DNA from: Arenicellales bacterium | GTDB lineage: Bacteria > Pseudomonadota > Gammaproteobacteria > Arenicellales > JAHEKD01 | Assembly (NCBI GenBank): GCA_028284225.1 | Contig: JANQSD010000007.1 | Span: forward strand, 1-64,000 | DNA length: 64,000 bases | Direction of reading: 5' to 3' | Shown here: in pieces, positions 1,613-12,380 of the stretch | Position numbering within the stretch: the first letter of the stretch is position 1 | How the letters are laid out: each line of letters opens with the position of its first letter | Notes under the pieces: generated by a model | Told to the model about the DNA's origin: nothing | The model's database searches: none | The model's input: the letters and a program-made list of their open reading frames with translations, nothing else | Translations under genes and position numbers: made by a program

Positions 1613-1673
1613 GCGTTGAGGGCGACCATGCTATGAGGGAATTACTGAACTGACTAATTTAATACGACCAGTT

Positions 1674-1833
1674 ATGTGCCGCAGCCTGATGGGTGATAAG
1701 GAGCTGGAGTAGATATCCCAAACTTTCTAGTCGTCAAAAGTCGATAAGAGAGCAATCACCTGGGTCTGTACCATTACCTCTCCACCCCCCAACAATACTC
1801 CCACAGGGGTGCAGGCTTAGAGCTGCGGCATAT
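1674..1833 (+). ncRNA. Candidate structured RNA element, copy A
   Basis: The ends pair over 12 bp with one wobble (1674-1685 with 1822-1833). Inside, GGTGAT at 1692-1697 pairs with ATCACC at 1755-1760. An 11-bp hairpin with one mismatch (CTTTCTAGTCG/CGATAAGAGAG) lies between those arms, and a stem of about 9 bp forms near GTCTGTACC/GGTGCAGGC. A similar arrangement recurs in copy B at 1989-2154 with different sequence in the stems. Strand is a guess based on T-rich sequence after the right arm. I do not recognise an RNA family, and a mobile miniature element is an alternative. Confidence 0.4.
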
Positions 1834-1988
1834 TTTACTAGCTAGTCGACACTGAAAAATACTCTATTAGAGTTTAGTAGGACAGAAAAGGAACTTGGCT
1901 CATCAGTGATGGTCAAATTTGATTATAGGAAAACTGTTATGGACCTCAAAGATGTGAAGCATATATTGGCAAATTAAAGTGACAGGCT

Positions 1989-2154
1989 ATATGCCGCGAC
2001 CCAAAAGGTGATAAATGTTGTACGACATATCCACTCCAACTCTCTACGTGTCGTAGAAGCTAGACAGTGACACCTCAGGGCTTGTACAACTACTCCTCCA
2101 CACCCACACTAATCCCTAAACTTCCGGAGGAACAAGTCCAGGGTCGCGGCGTAT
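1989..2154 (+). ncRNA. Candidate structured RNA element, copy B
   Basis: The ends pair over 14 bp with one wobble (1989-2002 with 2141-2154). AGGTG at 2006-2010 pairs with CACCT at 2071-2075. An internal hairpin uses TACGACAT and GTGTCGTA, and GGGCTTGT pairs with ACAAGTCC near the 3' end. Stems occupy the same positions as in copy A but with altered bases. The loop between the last arms keeps a common C-rich stretch (CTCC..CAC.CCC). A weak promoter-like TTGGCA-16-TATATG lies over the left end. Confidence 0.4.
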
Positions 2155-2292
2155 TTTGTATACTACGAAGAGATGCCAATATTACGGTATGATGGATTCT
2201 GTAGGGCAATAGGTAAAATACCGGAGTCAGAGTCAACATAACTCCTCTGGAATAGGGTAAGCAATAGGAGGAAATTTATTTGTCGAATATAG

Positions 2293-5137: not shown

Positions 5138-5878
5138 TTATAAATTAACCTTGGTATTATCTTTGGTTAGGACCTGAGCCGATTGACCGGATAAAGACAG
5201 CACTTGAGCATCAATTTTTTCTGTCGATGGAAATGATTCAAACAGTTTCACGGTTAGCTGTGATAGTTCGCCTGGTTTGTCACAATGAAATTCATATTCT
5301 GCAATGAACTCAGAGTGTGCTTCCCCATCGTTGTCATGGTCATCGTGCTCATGGGCGTGTTCATCTTCATGGTCACCTTCTTCCTTACTTGCATGATCAT
5401 CTCCATGGTCATCATCGTGCTCGTGCGCATGTTCATCCTTATGATCGCCATCATCGTGCTCGCTCGCGTGATCGTCTCCATGATCGTCATCGTGCCCATG
5501 TTCATGCTCATCTTCATGACCGTCCTCATGATGCTCTTCAGCTTCATGTTCGTGGTCATCCATGATAGTGGATTCGACATGAGCGTGTTCTATTTCGCAC
5601 ATTGCTTGCTCGGGCAGGGTGAAAAGGTCATCAGCTTGTTCAAGACGACTGATAGCCTCGCTTATTTGGTCTTCCTGTTCATGATTATTCGGTGCATGTT
5701 CAAAACCGACAATATTGATTGCAGGACTGATGAACTCTATTAATAGTTCATTGTTTTCGACTGCGATATTTAGTGCTGCAGCACCATGAACATGCGAGCC
5801 ATGTTGACGAACTTCCTGCTCTGAGGCGCTGCTGATAGCAGAGCCTAGTAAACCAAGTGCAATAACAATTTTTTTCAT
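5138..5878 (-). CDS. zrgA: ZrgA-like histidine-rich zinc-uptake protein (DUF2796)
   Basis: A 246-residue secreted protein with a signal peptide (about 1-19, ending SSAS). The N-terminal domain starts HGSHVHGAAALNIAVENNELLIEF, the DUF2796 signature. A low-complexity stretch of His, Asp and Glu (about residues 110-185) is made of HEHDDDHGDDHA-like units, and a second beta-rich segment follows. Such stretches bind zinc in the periplasm, and ZrgA proteins of Vibrio take part in zinc uptake. A perfect Zur-type palindrome lies 32 bases upstream of the start, which supports induction under zinc limitation. Downstream genes encode the partner ATPase, permease and DUF3299 protein. Confidence 0.85.
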   Translation of the reverse strand: MKKIVIALGLLGSAISSASEQEVRQHGSHVHGAAALNIAVENNELLIEFISPAINIVGFEHAPNNHEQEDQISEAISRLEQADDLFTLPEQAMCEIEHAHVESTIMDDHEHEAEEHHEDGHEDEHEHGHDDDHGDDHASEHDDGDHKDEHAHEHDDDHGDDHASKEEGDHEDEHAHEHDDHDNDGEAHSEFIAEYEFHCDKPGELSQLTVKLFESFPSTEKIDAQVLSLSGQSAQVLTKDNTKVNL

Positions 5879-10816: not shown

Positions 10817-11338
10817 TTAACTCCTCGATGGGAATAGTCCCTGTAAGGCAATGATGAAATTTATGGTCAAAAACGGTTGCATATTGTTATGGGCCTGTGA
10901 ACCGCCGACTATTGGCAATGTCTCATTTGCCATTGCGACCAGGTTCGCGGATGTATGAAATAAATTAGCTCCTACAGCCCTGGATAATGTTTCTGAAGCA
11001 GAAGCGTCGTCTTGATTTCCCGGTACCGGCACCACACCCATGGTATGAGTATGATTAGGCATTTGTGCTTCTGATAAGGTTACATCCTCCACGCCACCTC
11101 TTTCTCCAAGGCGCCTTGATGTCAATCCAGGGCCACGACCGGGATGCATGGGTGCGCGTCCCTGTAGATTGGGTAATGCTGTAGTGGAACGACCATCACC
11201 ACCATAGATGGTGCCGATTAGAGAGAAAAGGGCAGTATTTTGAGCGATCGGCAATAACTGACCATCACAAAACGCCCAACCGCGTGGAGCGAAGTTACCG
11301 GCAAAGATTCTGATTTCTGCAATAAAGGGTTCTGACAT
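10817..11338 (-). CDS. Tail-collar domain protein 1 (MdpB/microcystin-dependent type)
   Basis: A 173-residue protein of the phage tail collar superfamily (PF07484). It opens MSEPFIAEIRIFAGNFAPRG, then WAFCDGQLLPI, GGDGRSTTALPNLQGR, the histidine-rich PNHTHTMG and a C-terminal NNMQPFLTINFIIALQG. The frame extends to 11386, but the ATG at 11338 has AGGAGG upstream and gives the same 173-residue length as the next paralogue. It is one of three tandem copies. These proteins resemble the receptor-binding region of short tail fibres, yet no phage structural or lysis genes are nearby. Confidence 0.85.
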   Translation of the reverse strand: MSEPFIAEIRIFAGNFAPRGWAFCDGQLLPIAQNTALFSLIGTIYGGDGRSTTALPNLQGRAPMHPGRGPGLTSRRLGERGGVEDVTLSEAQMPNHTHTMGVVPVPGNQDDASASETLSRAVGANLFHTSANLVAMANETLPIVGGSQAHNNMQPFLTINFIIALQGLFPSRS

Positions 11339-11348
11339 GATTTTCCTC

Positions 11349-11870
11349 CTAATGACGAGATGGAAAAATGCCGACCAGCGCAACAATAAAATTCACGCAT
11401 AAGAACGGCTGAAGATTAGTATGTGACCGGCTGCCACCAACTGCTGTAACGGCATCGCTTGACAAACCTGCCGTTGTGGGTGGGTTTGAGAAATAAGCCT
11501 GTACAGCTAAATCACTGGCCGTCACGTTGCTTGCAGGATTTGTTTCAGTAGCCGGGTCTTGCGAAGCTTTCATGGTATGTGTATGGGACGGTAGTTGATT
11601 GACAGTAAGTGTTACGTTTTCCTCGCCACCTTTAGAGCCCAGCCTTCGGTTAGACAATCCGGGTCCTTGGCCGGCATGGACCGGTATGCGTCCGCGCATA
11701 TCCGGTAATCCGAAAGTAGTGCGACCGTCGCCGCCGTAGATAGTACCGAATAGACTGAAAAGTGCATCGTTTTGTGAAACGGCCAATAACTGCCCATCAC
11801 AAAATGCCCAGCCACGCGGAGCGAAATTACCGGCGAAAATTCTGATTTCGCCAACAAATGGTTCTGACAT
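11349..11870 (-). CDS. Tail-collar domain protein 2
   Basis: A 173-residue paralogue of the flanking genes. It starts MSEPFVGEIRIFAGNFAPRG and keeps WAFCDGQLLAV, FGTIYGGDGRTTFGLPDMRGR and SHTHTM, ending TNLQPFLCVNFIVALVGIFPSRH. A GGAGG-type site precedes the ATG. Spacing to the next collar gene is 10 bases. The variable part (about residues 100-140) differs most between copies, as expected for a ligand-binding loop. Confidence 0.85.
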   Translation of the reverse strand: MSEPFVGEIRIFAGNFAPRGWAFCDGQLLAVSQNDALFSLFGTIYGGDGRTTFGLPDMRGRIPVHAGQGPGLSNRRLGSKGGEENVTLTVNQLPSHTHTMKASQDPATETNPASNVTASDLAVQAYFSNPPTTAGLSSDAVTAVGGSRSHTNLQPFLCVNFIVALVGIFPSRH

Positions 11871-11879
11871 GATTACCTC

Positions 11880-12380
11880 CTAATTACGACTTGGAAACAG
11901 CCCTTGCAGCGCAATGCAAAAATTCAGCGCGATAAAGGGCATCATGTTATCGTGGGCTTGACCGCCACCAACGCTCGCTATGGACTGAGCATTAAGTGAA
12001 GTTAAATTAGTTGGTGTGTGATAAAGCGTGGTTGTGGCTCTAGCCAATACATTTCCTGCAGGGGTGTCCAGATTGGCATCATCGCTGCTGGCCATCGCGG
12101 TATGATCATGTGCCGGCATTTCGCTTCCCGATAGTGTATGTGTTTCCTCACCGGATTTTTGACCTTCAGTATGACCATTGCCAACATGTATCGGAGTGCG
12201 ACTACGCATATCCGGCAATGCAAAACTGGTGCGTCCGTCACCGCCATAGGTAGTGCCAAGCAGTGAAAAAAGTGATTGGTTTTGATTGATAGGTAAAATC
12301 TGGCCGTCACAAAAGGCCCAGCCCCGTGGTGCAAAATTGAAACCGACAATTCTGACCTCGGCCAAAAAAGGCTCTGACAT
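11880..12380 (-). CDS. Tail-collar domain protein 3
   Basis: A 166-residue paralogue, slightly shorter than the other two. It keeps the domain core (WAFCDGQILPI, GTTYGGDGRTSFALPDMRSR, PAHDHT, NNMMPFIALNFCIALQGLFPSR). A strong GGAGG lies upstream of the ATG. It is the first collar gene after the large beta-helix protein. I infer that three similar subunits may form a mixed trimer, because tail-collar domains normally trimerise. Confidence 0.85.
   Translation of the reverse strand: MSEPFLAEVRIVGFNFAPRGWAFCDGQILPINQNQSLFSLLGTTYGGDGRTSFALPDMRSRTPIHVGNGHTEGQKSGEETHTLSGSEMPAHDHTAMASSDDANLDTPAGNVLARATTTLYHTPTNLTSLNAQSIASVGGGQAHDNMMPFIALNFCIALQGLFPSRN

Follow-up and report, generated by a model that had tools for sequence, protein, structure and literature searches.

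Two neighbouring stretches of ~165 bases, elements A and B, lie in the intergenic gap that separates a C25 peptidase gene from a convergently oriented DUF3299 gene; they have one fold, with about a third of their letters differing. A and B share common ancestry, a fold, retained pairing within that fold and a strand bias, and they very probably represent a real RNA structure under selection. We read them as paralogous stand-alone structured RNAs, most likely a trans-acting regulatory pair, and our confidence in this reading is about even. Coordinates refer to the window, by which we mean the whole 64,000-nt stretch of DNA that was analysed.

Table 1. Positions of elements A and B and of their parts in the window.
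Feature	Position	Strand	Remarks
Element A, whole, 164 nt	1672..1835	+	covariance model match 162 bits; MFE -57.2 kcal/mol, z -2.95
A P1 5' arm, ATGTGCCGCAGC	1674..1685	+	inverted repeat; helix 1, 12/12 paired
A P1 3' arm, GCTGCGGCATAT	1822..1833	+	inverted repeat
A P2 5' strand, GGTG, within conserved GGTGATAA	1692..1695	+	
A P2 3' strand, CACC	1757..1760	+	
A internal hairpin, CTTTCT...AGAGAG	1723..1752	+	MFE and centroid prediction
A P3 5' strand, GGGTCTGTAC	1762..1771	+	partner 1809-1818
A C-rich P3 loop core, CATTACCTCTCCACCCCCCAACAA	1772..1795	+	TAC..CTCCAC.CCC conserved with B
A P3 3' strand, GTGCAGGCTT	1809..1818	+	
Element B, whole, 170 nt	1987..2156	+	covariance model match 194.2 bits; MFE -58.4 kcal/mol, z -6.08
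B P1 5' arm, ATATGCCGCGACCC	1989..2002	+	inverted repeat, 14 nt
B P1 3' arm, GGGTCGCGGCGTAT	2141..2154	+	inverted repeat, 14 nt
B P2 5' strand, GGTG, within conserved GGTGATAA	2007..2010	+	
B P2 3' strand, CACC	2071..2074	+	
B internal hairpin region, CTCTCT...AGACAG	2040..2067	+	MFE prefers CTACG/CGTAG inside region
B P3 5' strand, GGGCTTGTAC	2078..2087	+	partner 2130-2139
B C-rich P3 loop core, AACTACTCCTCCACACCCACACTAA	2088..2112	+	
B P3 3' strand, GAACAAGTCC	2130..2139	+	

The two elements are spaced 315 nt, measured from P1 to P1, and both have inverted repeats of 12 to 14 nt at their ends, with one G-U pair in each. Nowhere else in the 64-kb window does an inverted repeat of 12 bp, allowing one G-U at most, occur at a spacing of 120–160 nt. 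When aligned with MAFFT after a two-base spacer had been placed by hand, A and B were identical at 101 of 160 aligned bases (63%). The fold common to both consists of P1 (12 common pairs), P2 (GGTG/CACC), a CTYTCT/AGASAG hairpin and P3, in which GGGYYTGTAC pairs with its partner strand over 10 positions. A reading made earlier from the sequence only had described a tandem pair of similar layout, with paired ends, a GGTG/CACC helix in matching position, an internal hairpin and a 3' stem, and we found every one of these parts in both copies, the 3' stem being 10 bp long. Its further claim of a C-rich loop core also held, as CTCCAC lies in the P3 loop of A and of B; part of the C-rich loop of B is itself paired in the predicted fold. 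The conserved motifs GGTGATAA, ATATCC and CTCCAC.CCC fall mostly outside helices. Folding B as a single sequence gives identical MFE and centroid structures that contain P1, P2 and the outer portion of P3; the MFE structure of A has P1 and the hairpin, its interior being partly paired otherwise (z-scores in Table 1).

Pairing has been retained through sequence change. Twelve of the 32 modelled pairs vary between A and B, and ten of these are still standard: both partners changed in three (A-U/G-C and G-C/A-U in P1, C-G/U-A in P3) and one partner in seven. The remaining two are lost in one copy. The consensus fold of the + strand has an energy of -33.05 kcal/mol compared with -10.7 ± 3.2 kcal/mol in 1000 column shuffles of the alignment that kept gaps and column identity (z = -6.95; 0/1000 as low). 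Of 5000 simulated runs of unconstrained drift from B to 37% divergence, 0.02% retained 21 or more of the 22 P1 and P3 pairs; A has 22 of 22. Sliding the partners by 1–3 columns lowered the fraction of paired cells from 97% to 33–50%. A pair test with 500 shuffles gave 72/500, at low power, two rows permitting few arrangements. The same column-shuffle test on the minus strand gave a consensus fold with z = -4.1. Read on the + strand, the wobble pairs of P1 and P3 are G-U; on the minus strand they would be A-C mismatches, and we therefore take + to be the folding strand.

These results sharpen two earlier claims. That stem bases differ while pairing is kept is true of P1 and P3, which hold the three two-sided changes; it does not extend to P2, which is invariant and fits the fold while supplying no covariation evidence, or to the internal hairpin, which has five invariant pairs and one lost and supplies almost none. 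That the structure is selected draws support from the fold statistics, the two-sided changes and the G-U bias of the + strand, and pairing is kept through two-sided changes beyond what chance would give, as judged on two sequences. The earlier reading had named a lack of further homologues as a ground for refuting it, and within the reach of the searches described below none was found; because the covariation thus comes from one pair of sequences, significance of the R-scape type is out of reach.

The elements were also said to match no known RNA class, and this stood: a search with Rfam 15 at the gathering cut-off and, on the local stretch, up to E 5 returned no match to A or B; two chance matches on the minus strand fall outside the elements. 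A covariance model built from the two sequences, as had been proposed for searching related genomes, recovered both elements in their own genome with the scores given in Table 1, the next best being a 12.6-bit partial match. It found no convincing homologue in the order (109 genomes), the class (369 genomes) or the phylum (398 genomes), nor, with laxer filters, in 38 relatives. One genome of the same genus was among those searched and is 75% complete, which makes absence there weak evidence. We rejected one match within the order (L017; 20.8 bits, E 0.09) because it lacks a GCCGC-like P1, several of its pairs are broken and its best stretch is a 13-mer present in B only. No phage or plasmid record matched the A/B pair in BLAST, and copy B gave only chance matches of 20–24 nt in 60 relatives. 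A core-pattern scan of a collection of genome contigs produced 7 matches, about the number estimated by chance and none with the whole fold; scans of viral contigs likewise gave chance-level matches, none of them with the fold (for one pattern, among the 80 of 120 matches checked). The element was absent from other DUF3299 loci, and the literature yielded nothing useful on a similar RNA. So narrow a distribution suggests that the element was acquired recently or is a regulator specific to the lineage.

Upstream of A lies the end of the C25 peptidase gene (16–1218, + strand), and downstream of B the convergent DUF3299 gene, which is accompanied by an FtsX/ABC pair. Because these neighbours converge, a leader or leader-type riboswitch role is excluded for both of them. 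A and B have no open frame in common and so do not look coding. One earlier claim failed, namely that the upstream flanks are alike: local alignment was no better than shuffles (up60 6.1 versus 7.0 ± 1.3), and scores stayed within the shuffle range for 40–130 nt upstream and 100–145 nt downstream. Homology between A and B therefore ends at the P1 arms, an edge that fits either a duplicated unit with drifted unconstrained flanks or a copied unit.

The surrounding DNA is repetitive in other ways. The 3' end of the C25 peptidase gene, together with the tail behind it (1205–1552), is a multi-copy, partly tandem repeat, 74–84% identical, with further copies in the same genome at C15:62107-62636, C21:48-616, C23:176-502, C25:1377-1590 and C7:48-244; A and B lie outside it. 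Because these copies often sit at contig ends, the assembly probably breaks at the peptidase paralogues. A part of this tail of ~75 nt (1482–1551) recurs at some 20–25 dispersed genome sites in the manner of a short interspersed repeat, and the GTCATTCCGGATCACGACCCGGAATTCAGA region at 1577–1607 is a REP-like palindrome, of which contigs C1, C4, C17 and C18 carry similar copies. Farther along the window, 5138–5878 encodes a zinc uptake protein of the ZrgA family in which a long repeat region is rich in His, Asp and Glu, and 10817–12380 holds three consecutive tandem genes for similar proteins beginning MSEPF..E(I/V)RI..(F/G)NFAPRGWAFCDGQ, which we take to resemble phage tail-collar (Mdp-like) proteins.

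In the reading that we prefer, A and B would be transcribed from the + strand within the gap between the two convergent genes. Each RNA would form a three-way junction closed by P1, with the hairpin carried on P2 and with P3 displaying the C-rich loop YCTCCAC.CCC; P1 and the junction would stabilise the RNA. The CU-rich loop could then pair with G-rich, Shine-Dalgarno-like stretches of mRNAs, the two copies either being redundant or having targets of their own. That A and B are transcribed, pair through the loop and have a regulatory role is what we infer, and the C-rich P3 loop no more than hints at base-pairing with targets. Counting against an sRNA pair are the number of sequences (two, from a single genome), the partial pairing of the C-rich loop in B, which may leave less of it free for targets, and the outcome of the signal scans, which found no convincing, correctly placed promoter for A or B and no classical terminator for B. 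Only one promoter-like pair keeps its register between the copies; with the conserved TATRTG serving as the -10, it would place the start inside P1. Because the promoter evidence is poor, A and B may be released by processing of a longer transcript or may have an atypical promoter.

It is conceivable, if unlikely, that A and B are structured RNAs with a non-regulatory job, as an RNP scaffold, a catalytic RNA or the RNA of an unseen defence or phage-derived system. The junction fold, the closing stem of 12–14 bp and the conserved unpaired motifs exceed the needs of a simple base-pairing sRNA, but no partner gene lies nearby, and no Rfam ribozyme or RNP RNA matches up to E 5. A bolder version, which we consider rather improbable, would make A and B the founders of a new bacterial class of structured RNA, an RNP or catalytic RNA and not a simple antisense regulator, characterised by the three-way-junction fold and the three conserved motifs named above.

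We are equally doubtful that A and B are two old non-autonomous MITE-like copies, whose P1 arms would be terminal inverted repeats (TIRs) bordered by TA and whose unit would have been copied without its flanks. MITEs and ERIC- or NEMIS-like repeats do resemble A and B in their terminal inverted repeats, TA borders and length (~165 bp), and homology has a sharp edge at the P1 arms, with unrelated flanks and TA at each end of both copies. TA is too short for a verdict on target-site duplication, and no empty site in synteny was identified. A plain duplication would also leave unrelated-looking neutral flanks at 37% divergence of the constrained element. MITEs occur as multiple genomic copies sharing TIRs, whereas this genome has two copies only, 37% diverged, and the TIR motif (at most one mismatch) is near background, with 43 occurrences against 38 for the reversed control and no other facing pair seen. 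P1 and the internal helix P3, moreover, keep their pairing through two-sided changes, a co-maintenance that decaying TIRs would not show.

It is less probable still that A and B are not separate genes and serve the C25 peptidase mRNA as processing or stability hairpins in its 3' region. They do lie on the peptidase strand, ~450 nt past the stop codon at 1218, but a strong hairpin (~1261–1290) directly follows the gene, and the other genomic copies of the C25 tail are without A and B. That the shared pairing is functionless, a product of coincidence and common ancestry, would agree with a single sequence pair whose homologues were not found, but it is highly improbable, being contradicted by the fold and drift statistics and by the rarity of such inverted repeats, of which A and B are the only ones in 64 kb.

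The novelty is real at the level of the family, on the evidence of two sequences from one genome. If transcribed, A and B would constitute an RNA family absent from Rfam and visible only through two diverged paralogues lying side by side, and within-genome duplication could then reveal structured RNAs that cross-species alignment misses.

Two known systems that share features with A and B were set aside. Integron attC sites are, like A and B, tandem imperfect palindromes that retain their fold as the sequence diverges. They have a GTTRRRY core and an RYYYAAC inverse core and a length of 57–141 bp (PMC3053210). A and B are longer, their pairing favours + strand RNA, and their ends, which read TATGTGCCGC/GCGGCATATT and TATATGCCGC/GCGGCGTATT, are missing the RYYYAAC and GTTRRRY core sites, which excludes attC. 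Retron msr-msd RNAs resemble the elements in length (~165 nt) and in their paired ends; this reading is disfavoured because the sole RVT_1 match of the genome lies on another contig (C14), the neighbours of A and B being the C25 peptidase and DUF3299 genes with no reverse transcriptase beside them. At L207 1111-2469 (C14 ~407021-407476), the RVT_1 match falls within an open frame of 452 aa, after which come a short frame and a nuclease-like gene.

The sibling sRNAs LhrC and NmsR and the cuckoo-type sRNAs of alphaproteobacteria are paralogous, trans-acting and equipped with C-rich loops, which are able to pair with purine-rich ribosome-binding sites. A and B are like them in being diverged sibling copies, intergenic and bearing a C-rich loop. 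The known siblings are mostly simple hairpins of ~70–110 nt, whereas A and B, which match no Rfam family, combine a closing stem of 12–14 bp with a three-way junction.
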